Positions 1 through 6,520 of a stretch of DNA of 64,000 bases are shown piece by piece (positions within the stretch are counted from its first letter, which is position 1; every line of letters starts with the position of its first letter). The DNA is from Acidobacteriota bacterium (lineage in GTDB: Bacteria; Acidobacteriota; Polarisedimenticolia; Gp22-AA2), in the NCBI GenBank assembly GCA_003223135.1, contig QHXX01000018.1:1-64000 (forward strand). The letters run 5' to 3'. The notes below the pieces were generated by a model that was not told the origin of the DNA, ran no database searches, and worked only from the letters and a program-made list of their open reading frames with translations. Made by a program: the position numbers and the translations under genes.

Positions 1-601
1 CCAAGCGCGCCACCAGGACGAGCGCGTCGTCGGTTCCCCTGCAGTGACGCGCCATGATCTGATCGGCCAGGGACTGCGTCGGGCCCCCGGCATCCAGTCC
101 CTGGTCGAAGCCGCTCGTGATGCCATCGGTCGCGAAGACCAGGAGTCCCGAACCGGGAACCCCGATCCTCGACACCCGGAGCGCCGGCAGCCGGACGCCG
201 ACGGCCCCGCCGCGCAGCAGAAGCCGCTCGGGGGCGGGACGAGTCCCGGCGCCTGCCTGGATGAGAAGCCCCTCCACGTTGCCGACTCCGACCCAGGTCA
301 GAGACCTCCTCCTGGCGTCCCAGCGCGACAGGCTCAGCGCCACGCCGCGTGTCCGGACCAGTCTCTGGTGACAGCGCTCCACGATCTCGATCAGGGGCTG
401 GTCGGCGTGGTGCTCCACCGTCCGGACCGCCAGGTCGGCCGCCAGGGCCGCCTCGGCGCCGTGGCCGAGCCCGTCCATCGCCGCCAGGAGCGCGCCGTCC
501 GGCAGCGTTTTGACCACGCACCGATCTCCCGACTCGGTTTCGCCCGCCCGGGCCCGCTCGGCGACGGCCCATTCGACAAGCCCGTCCTTCACCGCTTCCA
601 T
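1..601 (-). CDS. SpoIIE/RsbX-like PP2C-family serine phosphatase (partial, 3' end outside window)
   Basis: The minus-strand frame starting with ATG at 601 stays open to the window edge (about 200 residues). It contains MDGLGHG near residue 40 and FATDGITSG near residue 155, the two metal-binding aspartate motifs of SpoIIE/RsbX phosphatases, and ends in TDDALVLVAR, typical of the last strand of that fold. The start overlaps the end of the rsbT-like gene by 13 bases, so the two are probably translationally coupled. In known stressosome operons RsbX removes phosphate from RsbS/RsbR and resets the complex; that role is inferred here from neighbours. No sensor domain is seen in the visible part. 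The stop codon lies outside the window. Confidence 0.82.
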   Translation of the reverse strand, partial: MEAVKDGLVEWAVAERARAGETESGDRCVVKTLPDGALLAAMDGLGHGAEAALAADLAVRTVEHHADQPLIEIVERCHQRLVRTRGVALSLSRWDARRRSLTWVGVGNVEGLLIQAGAGTRPAPERLLLRGGAVGVRLPALRVSRIGVPGSGLLVFATDGITSGFDQGLDAGGPTQSLADQIMARHCRGTDDALVLVARL

Positions 602-990
602 TTCCTCGCCGTCACCGTCGTTCCCCGGCCCACCGCGGAGACGATCTCGAATTCGTCCATGAGCCGCTTCACCCCGGGCAGGCCGAGTCCCAGGCTGCCG
701 GAGGTCGAATAGCCGACCTCCAGGGCGCGGGCGATGTCGGGAATGCCCGGCCCCTGGTCGCGCGCCACCAGGACGAGGCCTTCTCTTCCACCATCGTTGG
801 CGATGCCCAGCGTCAGCTCGCCCTTCTTCGCATACAGCAGGATGTTGCGCGCCAGCTCGGAGATCGCCGTGGCGATGAGGGTGAGGTGACTATTCGAGAA
901 GCCCATCTGCTGGGCGAGCGCGCGCCCACGCTGGCGGGCCGTCACGATGTCGACGTCCGAGTCGATCGGAACACGCGTCTCTTCCTTCAA
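589..990 (-). CDS. rsbT: RsbT-like anti-sigma regulatory factor / switch serine kinase
   Basis: This 133-residue single-domain GHKL (HATPase_c) protein matches the usual RsbT length. Visible ATP-site motifs are the N box SELARNILLYA, the G1 box DQGPGIPD and the G2 box GLGLPGVKRLMD. In the stressosome RsbT phosphorylates RsbS and RsbR, then leaves the complex to activate a downstream partner. It lies between rsbS (64-base gap) and the RsbX-like phosphatase (overlap), the classical R-S-T-X order. The downstream target (an RsbU-type phosphatase or another output) is not in the window. Confidence 0.9.
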   Translation of the reverse strand: MKEETRVPIDSDVDIVTARQRGRALAQQMGFSNSHLTLIATAISELARNILLYAKKGELTLGIANDGGREGLVLVARDQGPGIPDIARALEVGYSTSGSLGLGLPGVKRLMDEFEIVSAVGRGTTVTARKWKR

Positions 991-1054
991 TGAGCCTACC
1001 CTCGCACGGAGAGCCGGTCCGCCGCGGCCGCGGATCCATGCGTCCCCCCGTTCA

Positions 1055-1441
1055 TCAGCCTGAGGCGCCCAGATCCGTTCTGATCTTCTTCTTCGCTCCC
1101 CGATCCAGGAACGCCAGGCCCTCTTCCAGGTCGAGCGCCGTGGCCACTCCCTCGAGCGTCAGACCGAGCTGGACCATCGTGAAGGCGACCTCGGGCTGGA
1201 CCCCGACGATCACGGTCTCCGCTCCGCGCAGCCGGATCATGTGGGCGATGTCGCGCAGGGTCCGCGAGGCGAACGAGTCCATCACGTCCATCGCCGTGAC
1301 GTCCACGATGACCCCGCGCGATCGGAACCTGCCGACTTTCTCGACGAGCTCGTTCCGCAGCTCCAAAAGGTCTGCGTCGGACAGCGCTGATTGCACGCTG
1401 GCGATGAGATAGGCACCTTGCTTGAGAATCGGGACGGCCAC
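1055..1441 (-). CDS. rsbS: RsbS-like STAS-domain stressosome scaffold protein
   Basis: This 128-residue stand-alone STAS domain begins MAVPILKQG. The motif DVMDSFASR carries Ser56, aligned with the serine of Bacillus RsbS (Ser59) that RsbT phosphorylates. The stretch VGVQPEVAFTMVQLGL is the typical RsbS second half. The protein should form the core of the stressosome with RsbR and hold RsbT until stress. It is 13 bases downstream of rsbR, so the two are surely cotranscribed. Confidence 0.9.
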   Translation of the reverse strand: MAVPILKQGAYLIASVQSALSDADLLELRNELVEKVGRFRSRGVIVDVTAMDVMDSFASRTLRDIAHMIRLRGAETVIVGVQPEVAFTMVQLGLTLEGVATALDLEEGLAFLDRGAKKKIRTDLGASG

Positions 1442-1454
1442 GGGGCGCCCCCTT

Positions 1455-2351
1455 TCAGTTGGTTTGTTCCTGCTTCTCGACCGGCTCGACCTTGTAGCCC
1501 AGGAGCCGCTCGGCCTCCTCGATGCCGCCCTGCAGGTCGCCGACGGTGTTCATCTTGGTCAGATCCACGCCGATGTTCACCAGCGTCTGCGCGATCTCGG
1601 GGGACAGTCCCGTGACGATGACCGTCGCGCCGAGAAGCCGCGAGGCCTCCACCGTGAGGACGAGGTGGTTCGCCACGTTCGAGTCCATCGCCGCGACGCC
1701 GGTGATGTCGATGACCACCACCCGGGCCCGGTTGGTGCGGATGCCGCGTAAAAGCTGCTCGGTGAGCTGGCGGGCGCGTTGCGGGTCGATCACGCCGATG
1801 ATCGGCAGGATCAGGAGCCGCTCGCGCACCTGCAGGACCGGGGTGGACAGCTCGCGAATCGCCTCCTGCTGCTCGCGGATGGTGCGCTCGCGCTCTTGCA
1901 CGAACCCGACGGCCACGGTGATGGCGATGCGGTTGGCGGCCGGCTCGTACGCGTCCAAAATGCGGTTGAGCTTGTCGAAGTCGGCGTGGTACCGGGCAAA
2001 CAGCGACCGCGCCAGAACGTCGCGCAGCAGCAGCACGATCCCCACGACTTCGTCGGTCTGGACACCTCGCGGGATGATGCGCTCGGAGAGGTTGCGGGCG
2101 TAAGCCTGCAGGGCCTCGAAGGTGCCGGTTTCGAGGGCCTCGACGTAGTTATCGTAGACCGAGGTCGCCTCGGCGAATATCTCCTCCTTGGTCATCGCCG
2201 TCAGCAGCCGGGCCTCGGTGATGCGTTGCGCCCACTCCTCGCGGAGCTGGGTCCGCTGCTGCCGCAGGTGCGTCACGAGCTCGCGTAAGAGCATCGCGGT
2301 CGATTCGGACGGCACCTGCTTCAAATCCACCTGACTGCGTTCCCCCTTCAT
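1455..2351 (-). CDS. rsbR: RsbR-like stressosome sensor (N-terminal globin-like domain plus STAS)
   Basis: This 298-residue protein has a helical N-terminal sensor part (about residues 20-165, resembling the non-heme globin domain of RsbR), a linker helix rich in Glu/Arg, and a C-terminal STAS domain (about 175-285). The STAS part holds ITGVAAMDSNVANHL, where Ser occupies the position of the second phosphorylated Thr of Bacillus RsbRA. A strong ribosome binding site, GGGAGGAGG, precedes the ATG. It is the first gene of the rsbR-rsbS-rsbT-phosphatase operon. The signal it senses cannot be told from sequence. Confidence 0.88.
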   Translation of the reverse strand: MKGERSQVDLKQVPSESTAMLLRELVTHLRQQRTQLREEWAQRITEARLLTAMTKEEIFAEATSVYDNYVEALETGTFEALQAYARNLSERIIPRGVQTDEVVGIVLLLRDVLARSLFARYHADFDKLNRILDAYEPAANRIAITVAVGFVQERERTIREQQEAIRELSTPVLQVRERLLILPIIGVIDPQRARQLTEQLLRGIRTNRARVVVIDITGVAAMDSNVANHLVLTVEASRLLGATVIVTGLSPEIAQTLVNIGVDLTKMNTVGDLQGGIEEAERLLGYKVEPVEKQEQTN

Positions 2352-2824
2352 CGCACGACCTCCTCCCGCCAGGCACGCACGTGCCCGGGGCCTTGGGACA
2401 TCAAGACTCGCAGTGAATAGGGGCCTTCATCTTACCATTTCTGCTCCGGCGCTTGTCGATCGGCGATTCAGGCCGCCTTCTCCCGCCAAGTGGCCCCTTC
2501 GGAAGCCCTTTCGGGCGGGCACGTTTCGTGGTTTTCACCGCAATGAAATACCCCGAGTATCAGACACCAGCCATCAGGTATTCACCTGAATGGTTGGAAG
2601 GAAGAACCCTGTCCCATCGATATGACGATTCGGGACAGATCGTCAAGATTCTGTGTCCGGTCTTTGTCCCACATGGCCTCCGGAATCTCCCTGAAGAGAG
2701 TCCGGAAGATCCTCTAAGCTCCGTGGCCCGGTCGAGTTCCCCTGTTTTTCCCGGCGTGGCCGACGCCCTGGTATCCCTCTTGCAATCCGAAGCGACTGCA
2801 AGATTCTGGAGCGGAGACCCTTTT
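2352..2824. other. Divergent intergenic region between rsbR and the riboswitch
   Basis: About 470 bases with no convincing gene. An open frame on the plus strand (2453-2887) runs into the riboswitch aptamer and has no family resemblance, so it is not called. The stretch is less GC-rich than its surroundings around 2540-2660 and has a short imperfect palindrome (CAGGTATTCACCTG, 2575-2588). It must contain the promoters of rsbR (minus) and of the riboswitch-led gene (plus), but neither could be assigned a good -35/-10 pair. Confidence 0.4.
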
Positions 2825-2903
2825 CCCGATAAGGGCAAACCCGTCGCGAGGCGGGGACGCAAAGCCACGGGTCAGGAATGGTTCTGACAGCCGGGCCGCC
2901 GAA
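2825..2903 (+). promoter_or_regulatory. Cyclic-di-GMP-I (GEMM) riboswitch aptamer
   Basis: The plus strand carries the conserved GEMM-I core in order: AGGGCAAACC at 2832, a tetraloop-capped stem with GCGA at about 2845, GGGACGCAAAGCC at 2853-2865, a receptor helix, and CAGCCGGGCCGCC at 2888-2900. The GGGCAAACC, GGACGCAAAGCC and GCCGGG blocks are the invariant parts of this class; they form the c-di-GMP pocket and the tetraloop-receptor contact. It lies about 60 bases ahead of the secreted LamG protein gene on the same strand, so it should control that gene in response to c-di-GMP. The call rests on recognising the motif; no covariance search was run. Confidence 0.88.
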
Positions 2904-2930
2904 GAAAAGGATACATCCAAGGATTACCCC

Positions 2931-2964
2931 GGGCATGGGGGTCCTCCGCGTGAGGTGGATGCCC
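2931..2964 (+). promoter_or_regulatory. Hairpin covering the Shine-Dalgarno site (putative riboswitch expression platform)
   Basis: GGGCAT (2931-2936) pairs with ATGCCC (2959-2964), and inside it CCTC (2943-2946) pairs with GAGG (2952-2955), which is part of the ribosome binding site GAGGTGG of the GTG start at 2966. There is no U-tract, so translational control fits better than transcription termination. This is inference from base pairing by eye. Confidence 0.5.
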
Positions 2965-2965
2965 C

Positions 2966-5900
2966 GTGTACACGGGTCTTGGATCGTCCGTTCTCCGTAC
3001 CCGGCTCGTCGTTCTGACCGTCGCCGGTCTGCTGCTCGTCCTCGGGCGGGCATCGGCCCAATCGACCCCGGCCAGCGACCCGCTGGTCTTCCCGGGGGGT
3101 TTCCTCGAGACCGCGACGACCGGCGTGGTGCGGCCGCGGCTGGCGCAGTCGGTGCTGCAGGCGCTTTTGCCCTCGCGCGGCCTGTTCACCTTTCCCGCAC
3201 CTTACAACACCAGCGCCATCCGCCTCACCAACCCCACCGACTGCGGCGGCTCCGACTGCGTGTACTCCGTCGGTTACTCCTACTACCGCAACATCAACAA
3301 CCACGTCGGCAGCGACGAGATGCTCATCTTCCTGGGGCTCGACCGCTCCCGGGGCGGCGGCGGCCCGACCCTGTTCCGCTACAACAAGCTCACCGACCAG
3401 GTCACCAACGCCGGCCCTCTGTTCGACCCCGCCAGCCCTCTGAGCTTTCACAGCGGCGAGGGCTGGTACTTCAGCGGCACCCAGCCGACCAAGATTTACC
3501 TCAACAGCGACTCGCGCATGCTGCGCTACGACGTCCTCACGCACCAGCTCGAGACGGTCTTCGACGTCGCCCCGCAGTACGGATCCGACAAGTACATCTG
3601 GCAGATGCACTCGAGCGACGACGACCGGGTCCACTCCGCCACGCTCAGGACCAATCCGACCTATGAGATGCTCGGGTGCGTCGTCTACAAGGAAGACACC
3701 CGGCAGTTCTCCTACTTCCCGAAGCTGGGAGATTTCGACGAGTGCCACGTCGACAAGAGCGGCCGCTGGCTGGTGATCCTGGACAACGTGGACCGGCTGT
3801 ATGACGTGGAGATGCGCATCATCGATCTGACCACCAACACCGAGCGGATGGTCTGGGATCAGGATGGAGCGGCTGCCCACCTGGACACGGGGTACGGCTA
3901 CCTCGTCGGGGCCGACAACTGGAACCCTCTGCCCAATGCCGAGCTGCTCTGGGACTTCACCAAGGACCCGCTCTCGGGCCGCATGGTCTGGCACACCCTG
4001 GACTGGTCGGCCGCCGCGCCCAACCACATCGCGCACGGCAATGCCCGGCCGGGCGTCCCCGCCGCCCAGCAGTATGCCTGCGGCAGCGGCGCTTCGCGCG
4101 TCGACGCCCCCTGGGCCAACGAGATCATCTGCTTTCCGCTCGACGGATCCCTGCGGGTCCTGGTAGTCGCTCCCGTCATGACCGACCTGAACGCCCCGGG
4201 CGGCGGCGACGACTACACCAAGTTCCCCAAGGGCAACCTCGACGTCACCGGACAGTACTTCATCTGGGCCAGCAACATGGGCGGCAGCCGCCTCGACGCC
4301 TTCATCGTCAAGGTGCCCTCGCAGGTGCTCATGGGCGGGGCCTCCGACACGACGGCACCGTCGATTTCGATCACCGCCCCGACCACCGGTTCGACCGTCG
4401 GCGGATCGATCACGGTCTCGGCGAGCGCGTCTGACAACGTCGGCGTGGCCGGTGTCCAGTTTCGCCTGGACGGGGTGACCCTCGGCGCCGAGGACACCGC
4501 GTCGCCCTACGCCGTCTCCTGGACCACGACGGGCGCCGCCAACGGCTCCCACACCCTGACCGCCGTGGCCCGCGACGCCGCGGGCAACTCGACGACAGCG
4601 GTTGCGACCCCCGTCACCGTCGCGAACGGCGACGTCACCCCTCCGCTGATCTCCGCCGCCCAGGCGTCCGCCGTCTCCTCCACCGGAGCCACCGTCACCT
4701 GGACGACCAACGAGTCCTCCGACTCGCAGGTCGAGTATGGCCAGACCACCGGCTACGGGACCAGTACGCCCCTGGGCACGGCGATGACCACGTCGCACGG
4801 CCTGAGCCTGGCGGGCCTCTCGCCGGCCACTCTCTGCCACTATCGCGTGAAGTCCAGAGACGCCGCCGGCAACCTGGCGACCTCCGGTGACTTCACCTTC
4901 ACTACACTGCAGCCGACGCCGCCCCCGCCCGCCACGGGCCCCATCGCCTATTGGAAGCTCGACGACGGGAGCGGCACCCTGGCCGCCGACTCTTCCGGCA
5001 ACGGCTTCAACGGCACCCTCGTCAACGGTCCCGCCTGGGTCGCCGGCAGGATCGGCCAGGGCCTCTCCTTCGACGGCGTCGATGACTACGTCGACGTCCC
5101 GAGCGCTCCGGCTCTCGACACCTTCCCGCTCACGCTCGCGGCCTGGGTCAAAACCACTGACACCGGCCTGCACGGTGTCGTCAACAAGTACCTCCCCGCC
5201 TCCCTCAACGGCTACCAGGTCTTCATCAACGGCGGCAGCCTCTGTGCGTGGTATTTCAGGGATGCCTCCAACTACGTCTGGGACGGCACCGGCTGCACCC
5301 TGGCCACCCCGGGGTTCACCGATGGCGCGTGGCACCACGTCGCCTTCGTCGTGGACGCCGCGGGCGGCAGATTGTACGTGGATGGCGTGCAGAAGGCCGC
5401 ACGCGCCTGGACCGGCACCGCCGGCGCCACCTCGACGACCGCCGGCCTCAGCCTCGCGCGCTACCCAGGGAGCGCAGCGCCCTACTTCCCGGGCGCTCTT
5501 GACGAGGTGCGTCTGTACAACCGCGCCTTGAGCGCGAGCGAGGTCGCGGGCCTGGCCATCATCGACACCACCGCTCCGATCATCTCGGCGGTCTCGGCCA
5601 CAAATCTTACGTCCTCCGGGGCGACCATCGCCTGGACGACGAGCGAGACCGCTGACACCCAGGTCGAGTTCGGTCCGACGACGGCCTACGGGGTCTCGAC
5701 GCCGCTGAGCGCCACGCTCCTCACAGGGCACTCTCAGCCATTGAGCGGGCTGGCATCCGGCACCGTTCAGCACTACCGGGTGAAGTCACGCGACGCCGCC
5801 GGCAGCCTCGCCGTCTCGGGGGACTTTTCCTTCACGACCCTGGCGGCCAGCCCGGCGCCCCCCGGCAAACGCAAGCACGGTCGTCCCCTCAGCTACTGGA

Positions 5901-6520
5901 AGCTGAACGATGCCTCCGGCACGAGCGCTTCGGACGACTCCGGAAACGGCTTCACCGGCGCACTCGTCAACGGCCCTGCCTGGTCCACCGGTGTCCTCGG
6001 CGGCGGCCTGGAGCTGGACGGCCTCGATGATTACGTCGAGGTCCCGCACGACGCGAGCCTCGATCCTTACCCCCTGTCGATCGTTCTCTGGGTCAGAACC
6101 GGGGCCACCGGCCTGCACGGCCTCGTCAACAAGTACCTCCCAGGCTCCCTGAACGGTTACCAGATCTTCATCAACTCGGGCAACCTTTGCGCCTGGTACT
6201 TCAGGGACGCCTCCGACTACGTCTGGGACGGCACCGGCTGCACCCTCATGACGCCCGGTGTGACGGACGCCCTCTGGCACCACGTGGCTCTCGTCGTGGA
6301 CGACTCGGGCGGCCAGCTGTACGTCGACGGTGAACTGCAGGCAAGCCACGAGTGGATGGGGACGCCCGGCGCCGCGACGACCACGACCAACCTCCGATTC
6401 GGGCTCTACCCGGGCGTGGCCACGCCGTTTCTTCCGGGCACGATCGACGACGTCCGCCTCTACGCCCGCGCCCTCAGCGCCGACGAGGTCGCCGGCCTGT
6501 ACTCCGGGGCGGCGCGCTAG
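2966..6520 (+). CDS. Large secreted protein: beta-propeller-like N-terminal part, Ig-like domain and two FnIII-LamG units
   Basis: This 1184-residue protein has a GTG start placed 7 bases after GAGGTGG. A signal peptide (RTRLVVLTVAGLLLVLG, probable cleavage after ASAQ near residue 32) precedes about 420 residues of beta-rich sequence that may be a propeller. Then come an Ig-like domain (about 464-555), FnIII (555-650), LamG/concanavalin-like lectin domain (658-865), FnIII (866-962) and a second LamG domain (971-1184). The two FnIII-LamG units are close copies of each other (shared GLHGVVNKYLP-type and SNYVWDGTGCTL-type segments). No anchor or sorting signal is seen at the C-terminus. LamG domains bind or enclose glycans, so adhesion or matrix binding is plausible. 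That fits control by the c-di-GMP riboswitch upstream. No catalytic motif was recognised. Confidence 0.8.
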   Translation: MYTGLGSSVLRTRLVVLTVAGLLLVLGRASAQSTPASDPLVFPGGFLETATTGVVRPRLAQSVLQALLPSRGLFTFPAPYNTSAIRLTNPTDCGGSDCVYSVGYSYYRNINNHVGSDEMLIFLGLDRSRGGGGPTLFRYNKLTDQVTNAGPLFDPASPLSFHSGEGWYFSGTQPTKIYLNSDSRMLRYDVLTHQLETVFDVAPQYGSDKYIWQMHSSDDDRVHSATLRTNPTYEMLGCVVYKEDTRQFSYFPKLGDFDECHVDKSGRWLVILDNVDRLYDVEMRIIDLTTNTERMVWDQDGAAAHLDTGYGYLVGADNWNPLPNAELLWDFTKDPLSGRMVWHTLDWSAAAPNHIAHGNARPGVPAAQQYACGSGASRVDAPWANEIICFPLDGSLRVLVVAPVMTDLNAPGGGDDYTKFPKGNLDVTGQYFIWASNMGGSRLDAFIVKVPSQVLMGGASDTTAPSISITAPTTGSTVGGSITVSASASDNVGVAGVQFRLDGVTLGAEDTASPYAVSWTTTGAANGSHTLTAVARDAAGNSTTAVATPVTVANGDVTPPLISAAQASAVSSTGATVTWTTNESSDSQVEYGQTTGYGTSTPLGTAMTTSHGLSLAGLSPATLCHYRVKSRDAAGNLATSGDFTFTTLQPTPPPPATGPIAYWKLDDGSGTLAADSSGNGFNGTLVNGPAWVAGRIGQGLSFDGVDDYVDVPSAPALDTFPLTLAAWVKTTDTGLHGVVNKYLPASLNGYQVFINGGSLCAWYFRDASNYVWDGTGCTLATPGFTDGAWHHVAFVVDAAGGRLYVDGVQKAARAWTGTAGATSTTAGLSLARYPGSAAPYFPGALDEVRLYNRALSASEVAGLAIIDTTAPIISAVSATNLTSSGATIAWTTSETADTQVEFGPTTAYGVSTPLSATLLTGHSQPLSGLASGTVQHYRVKSRDAAGSLAVSGDFSFTTLAASPAPPGKRKHGRPLSYWKLNDASGTSASDDSGNGFTGALVNGPAWSTGVLGGGLELDGLDDYVEVPHDASLDPYPLSIVLWVRTGATGLHGLVNKYLPGSLNGYQIFINSGNLCAWYFRDASDYVWDGTGCTLMTPGVTDALWHHVALVVDDSGGQLYVDGELQASHEWMGTPGAATTTTNLRFGLYPGVATPFLPGTIDDVRLYARALSADEVAGLYSGAAR

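Follow-up and report, generated by a model that had tools for sequence, protein, structure and literature searches.

We propose that the leader of a gene for a large secreted protein is a translational c-di-GMP-I riboswitch, in which pairing of an upstream strand (U) with an anti-Shine-Dalgarno strand (A) competes with pairing of A with the Shine-Dalgarno (SD) region, and that c-di-GMP probably turns the gene on. This reading as a whole is favoured, with fair rather than high confidence. The riboswitch class is known; its three-strand expression platform seems, by comparison of leaders, to be a new variant. The analysed stretch of DNA (the window, 64,000 nucleotides) is contig C108:1-64000 of an uncultured soil Acidobacterium whose genome comprises 3.7 Mb in 158 contigs. 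The elements of the locus are as follows.

2768–2784 (+): sigma-54-like -24/-12 promoter element, CTGGTATCCCTCTTGCA, score 13 of 16
2811–2819 (+): strand U, GCGGAGACC, duplex with strand A of -18.3 kcal/mol
2820–2826 (+): P1 extension, 5' strand
2825–2904 (+): c-di-GMP-I (GEMM-I) aptamer
2846–2849 (+): GNRA loop GCGA in P2, from the aptamer alignment
2904–2910 (+): P1 extension, 3' strand
2934–2949 (+): strand A, the anti-SD 5' arm of the hairpin, CATGGGGGTCCTCCGC
2950–2968 (+): 3' arm of the hairpin, with the SD GAGGTGG (2952–2958) and the GTG start (2966–2968)
2966–6520 (+): target gene, 1184 aa, GTG start, with GAGGTG 8 nt before the GTG

When the whole window was searched on both strands with cmscan, the segment 2825–2904 (+) was the single match above any Rfam cut-off. 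It matched RF03167 (c-di-GMP-I-GGC) over the full length of the model with 76 bits (cut-off 59, E 3e-16). The GEMM-I covariance-model run suggested by the first-pass annotation gave 72.4 bits at the same place for RF01051 (c-di-GMP-I, cut-off 35). These scores rule out a chance or marginal aptamer. In the Vc2 aptamer, c-di-GMP is contacted by G20, A47 and C92 (PMC4744006). All three contacts are canonical in the window (G20 = 2834, A47 = 2861 and C92 = 2899, residue numbers being read from the printed alignment), and the GEMM-I blocks claimed by the first-pass annotation are thus confirmed in both class and pocket letters. GEMM-I switches for cGAMP carry A20, and this variant is ruled out by G2834. 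Position 47 is G in the RF03167 consensus but A in the window and in every readable relative; hence we treat the window aptamer as one of the canonical c-di-GMP type that resembles the -GGC model overall. The "-GGC" of the name may denote the letters at 20, 47 and 92. Together, the scores and pocket letters make a convincing case for a GEMM-I aptamer, which would be expected to bind c-di-GMP.

The flanks of the aptamer were compared in a collection of 142 aptamers, 88 of which have a hairpin of at least seven pairs over the SD region, ahead of the start codon. Figures for P1, for A:SD pairing and for the two states come from 64 leaders preselected for U:A pairing at -8 kcal/mol or stronger. 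In these leaders the P1 extension (2820–2826 with 2904–2910 in the window) covaries: own strands pair better than mismatched ones with z = -7.1. RNAalifold on the leader alignment A3 agrees, with compensatory changes in columns 14–20.

Folding of 2930–2968 gave a hairpin of -20.1 kcal/mol, in which SD letters 2954–2955 and 2957–2958 are paired and the GTG start (2966–2968) pairs with CAU 2934–2936. Folding energy alone is weak evidence for this hairpin, since z was only -1.8 against shuffles. It is nevertheless more than chance because of its relatives, namely the 88 leaders that share it and the covariation of the A and SD arms, whose own pairs are far better than mismatched ones (z = -13.8 over the 64 leaders). 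In four leaders of the same genus and family (L007, L012, L013 and L014) the hairpin is built from different letters, e.g. GGTGGTCCTCCGCGTCCTGGGAGGGCCACC-ATG, stands directly 5' of the start codon and precedes the same protein family. A conserved hairpin over the SD or start codon is the mark of a translational, SD-masking platform. A terminator-type platform at this locus is ruled out by the absence of a U-run after the hairpin. The first-pass annotation had placed an SD-masking hairpin here, formed by pairing CCTC with GAGG. Masking of the SD holds, by a hairpin larger than described, but the CCTC:GAGG register (2943–2946 with 2952–2955) is a less stable alternative (-78.8 versus -84.1 kcal/mol when the leader is folded with the aptamer as a constraint).

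Strand U adjoins the aptamer on its 5' side and complements the anti-SD arm (2940–2949): 2811–2816 pair with 2949–2944 and 2817–2819 with 2942–2940, C2943 being bulged. A can thus form either of two mutually exclusive helices, U:A or A:SD. Most of the 88 leaders carry U directly 5' of the aptamer, many Rokubacteria as GGGAAGACC, and matched variants of U and A occur (GAAGACC/GGUCUUC, GGAGACC/GGUCUCC, GAGGACC/GGUCCUC and GCGGAGC/GCUCCGC). U was tested against the hairpin's own 5' arm, in place of a long-segment duplex test that was dropped because unrelated pairings diluted it. Over the 88 leaders, the mean duplex energy was -10.6 kcal/mol for own pairs and -8.9 kcal/mol for mismatched ones (z = -6.3, p <= 5e-5, a p-value that is optimistic because the permutations take no account of the tree). 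Against the same arm, shuffled U gave -7.8 and a segment further upstream -6.9 kcal/mol. Restricting the set to a single leader from each of 42 genomes gave a median z of -4.35. Column-based pair counting on the MAFFT alignment (A3) was unsuitable for U:A and was dropped, because leaders differ in the position of U by one letter or more; with RNAalifold, the alignment supported only the aptamer, the P1 extension and the base of the hairpin.

In the proposed mechanism, the transcript would begin with strand U and then the aptamer with its extended P1; after a linker of ~30 nt, strand A, the SD strand and the GTG start would follow in that order. In the OFF state, A would pair with the SD strand and hide both the SD and the start codon. 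In the ON state, A would pair with U, so that a helix closes around the whole aptamer and the SD is free. Binding of c-di-GMP would most likely hold the ends of the aptamer together and favour U:A. High c-di-GMP would then switch on the secreted protein, a likely attachment or matrix factor.

The energies of the two states were computed for the window leader up to just past the start codon: -67.1 kcal/mol for OFF and -64.4 kcal/mol for ON, a gap of 2.7 kcal/mol. The probability of U:A was 0.94 before the SD strand is made and 0.17 in the full leader. The median OFF-ON gap over the 64 leaders was 4.5 kcal/mol. With a longer coding stretch the gap in the window grew to about 11 to 16 kcal/mol in favour of OFF, which means that the chosen 3' end of the transcript shifts the balance. 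When P1 was held closed, the nearest-neighbour energy model gave U:A no advantage (median cost 8.2 versus 6.5 kcal/mol), and for this reason we only infer the coupling of ligand to U:A. The ON direction is suggested by the default state, by the geometry and by what kind of protein the leaders control; an off-by-default switch released by its ligand would fit, as in Vc1-gbpA.

Three other readings were weighed against this one. The sign could be the opposite, c-di-GMP favouring the A:SD hairpin and shutting the gene off while U:A is the ligand-free ON state. This we regard as rather unlikely. Class I switches of either sign do exist (Cd1 is OFF with c-di-GMP, the cGAMP switch pilM is ON; PMC9262584), U:A can form first, ahead of transcription of the SD strand, and it became slightly costlier in the energy model when P1 was forced closed. 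Yet without ligand the window and most leaders are computed to be OFF already in their ground state, which leaves little for an OFF ligand to do, and most targets are secreted or surface proteins, like the one under the ON switch Vc1-gbpA. It is unlikely, too, that U lies outside the switch and is conserved for some other reason, for example as the first letters transcribed after a sigma-54 start or as a ribosome standby site, only the aptamer and the A:SD hairpin being regulatory. That own U:A pairs beat mismatched ones, also with one leader per genome, and that shuffled U and the upstream control are clearly weaker than own U speak for a part in switching. On the other side, a degree of complementarity is to be expected, because A is CUCC-like and is matched by U as well as by the SD strand; U and A are shared by descent among leaders, so the z-score overstates the independent evidence; and little U:A is present in the full leader.

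The aptamer itself might sense another dinucleotide or be decayed, the hairpin alone setting a low rate of translation. The best Rfam model being the -GGC variant is the point in favour of this reading, which we consider very improbable: all three pocket letters are canonical whereas cGAMP switches have A20, A47 is present in every readable relative, and 76 bits is far from decay. A switch turned on by c-di-GMP is therefore the reading retained here. It is also weakened by the finding that some relatives of the target protein have no riboswitch. The translational c-di-GMP control proposed by the first-pass annotation gains support from the aptamer-hairpin-gene unit, which is kept in relatives from three phyla. 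That annotation missed strand U, the extended P1, the sigma-54-like promoter and the occurrence of many such leaders per genome in relatives.

The leader is probably transcribed from the sigma-54-like element at 2768–2784, in which GG (2770–2771) and GC (2782–2783) have the GG-N10-GC spacing and the TGG and TTGC context; from the usual spacing, transcription would start near 2795. Taken singly, such a motif often arises by chance: the window contains 10, with 5.2 expected. Stricter thresholds are reported for the leaders, because a loose scan gave too many chance matches (27 expected). At the strict score, the element precedes 86 of the 96 Rokubacteria and NC10 leaders (2.8 expected from shuffles) and is found in 1/90 of a coding control. 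It stands before 10/25 leaders of the window's own class (0.8 expected) and before a single one of 20 leaders in other Acidobacteriota. The window's own genome has one RpoN match and 19 GGDEF matches; with so many GGDEF domains encoded, the host probably makes c-di-GMP.

The target protein has a signal-peptide-like N-terminus (by eye), and its domains are arranged as follows.

Residues about 45–455: predicted beta-propeller
Residues 465–533: Big_7
Residues 569–647: FnIII-like
Residues 703–861: LamG
Near the C-terminus: second LamG

Pfam recognised Big_7, the FnIII-like match and two stretches of Laminin_G_3 (177.8 bits, curated cut-off 27.6), which bears out the earlier description of a secreted multi-domain protein of 1184 residues with a GTG start. 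A Pfam match was absent from the N-terminal stretch of 427 residues. The AF2 model of this stretch is a beta-propeller with a mean pLDDT of 90, so that what had been called a propeller-like part is now a predicted propeller. The model is closest to oligogalacturonate lyase (3pe7/3c5m, TM-score 0.62/0.69, 13% identity). The LamG domains and the lyase-like fold are only suggestive of glycan binding. The target, large and secreted, is probably a surface-binding, adhesin-like protein. Paralogs without the riboswitch (L033, L035 and L036) end in dockerin-like repeats (DINRDCRIDGADLNLLARAWN..., by eye) and not in LamG.

Among named records, the closest that encode relatives of the target come from Acidobacteria MAGs, of which three bear the label gp22. 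This leader is followed by the target's protein family in an NC10 MAG (L051), a Rokubacteria MAG (L082) and Acidobacteriota. RF03167 is present in 54/396 Acidobacteriota genomes; in one Rokubacteria order 38 of the 60 genomes have it, and a single genome there can hold as many as nine copies. The first proteins downstream of the other leaders form 23 sequence groups, and most of these proteins start like secreted ones (by eye). Those sampled include proteins with FnIII and InlB-repeat domains, a subtilase, an M11 peptidase, a di-haem oxidoreductase and a type IV pilin, as well as a glycosyltransferase and a response regulator that carries a sigma-54 interaction domain. The last stands behind such a leader in L181 (G447), where a feed-forward loop is possible. 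A sigma-54 promoter, a c-di-GMP-I aptamer and a 5' strand that frees the SD by taking up the anti-SD arm may form a module common to Rokubacteria, NC10 and some Acidobacteriota, present up to nine times per genome and with mainly secreted proteins, but also a type IV pilin and a sigma-54 activator, as outputs; our judgement on this is evenly balanced.

Several variants of the leader were seen. Seven Rokubacteria-type leaders (L115, L120, L124, L155, L183, L190 and L197) have an extra small hairpin of the GGGGUG...CACCCC type after the aptamer (by eye). It overlaps the 3' strand of the P1 extension, with which it could compete, and is absent from the window (by eye). In G004, a decayed aptamer (L031 877–957 (-), 31.8 bits, below the cut-off) with its own U strand and hairpin lies upstream of an intact copy; the reading frame behind it has only about 54 codons. 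In the G010 ortholog (L034, about 1265–1440), a U-like GGAGACC and an A-like GGTCTCC are kept, and the aptamer region between them has no Rfam match at E 0.1, which may reflect decay or a new sensor.

The window's own genome holds two further aptamers. A second GEMM-I aptamer (L002 1501–1576, C108:97417–97492) lies behind a sigma-54-like element and before a subtilase (S8); in it and its relatives the pocket-side pair 21–46 is swapped (C21 and G46 for G21 and C46). The third (L003 1501–1590 (-), C115:3795–3884) is followed by a GC-rich hairpin and a T run (GGCCCGCTG...CAGCGGGCCTTTTT) and so, in contrast to the window locus, resembles a transcriptional switch. Divergent from the window leader is an RsbR/RsbS/RsbT-like module (589–2351 (-); STAS with RsbRD_N, STAS and HATPase_c_2). 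The RsbR-like gene adjoins the riboswitch locus in G001, G002 and G004 with 94–96% identity, which suggests a kept neighbourhood.

Much work has been done on c-di-GMP-I aptamers, yet few translational expression platforms of the class have been delineated by covariation. The window leader provides a three-strand model that can be tested and for which nature supplies many compensatory variants, and it brings c-di-GMP sensing and sigma-54 transcription together in a single leader; the family suggests c-di-GMP targets in uncultured soil phyla (Rokubacteria, NC10 and Acidobacteriota). In a literature search with most subscription journals outside its scope, we found neither a description of the three-strand platform and its pairing with a sigma-54 promoter in these phyla nor a paper joining c-di-GMP, riboswitch and Rokubacteria.

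Among known systems, RF03167 is the best-scoring family model for the aptamer, and U, the P1 extension and the SD hairpin fall outside it. For the protein, the predicted fold of the first 427 mature residues resembles oligogalacturonate lyase 3pe7/3c5m, but at such low identity and with no sequence-family match we do not claim lyase activity. In glycine riboswitches, P0 is a helix between the leader segments on either side of the aptamer. The pairing of the two aptamer flanks is alike here, the aptamer is unrelated, and the glycine P0 is part of the aptamer fold and, to our knowledge, not an anti-SD competitor. As in Cd1 (c-di-GMP, OFF) and pilM (cGAMP, ON), a homologous aptamer is combined with competing strands that decide the outcome and a 5' strand is involved, but those switches act through terminators, whereas here the hairpin covers the SD and start codon without a U-run, and the additional strand is on the 5' side of P1 (PMC9262584). 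A precedent is Vc1 of Vibrio cholerae, a GEMM-I switch through which c-di-GMP raises a translational fusion of the secreted adhesin GbpA (PMC4744006). Unlike the window leader, Vc1 is not described with a U strand or a sigma-54 promoter in the text searched, and its target is a chitin-binding protein rather than a propeller-Ig-FnIII-LamG protein (PMC4744006). In both, a class I aptamer stands in the leader of a secreted surface-binding protein (PMC4744006), and the window switch would, by its probable sign, act in the same direction.
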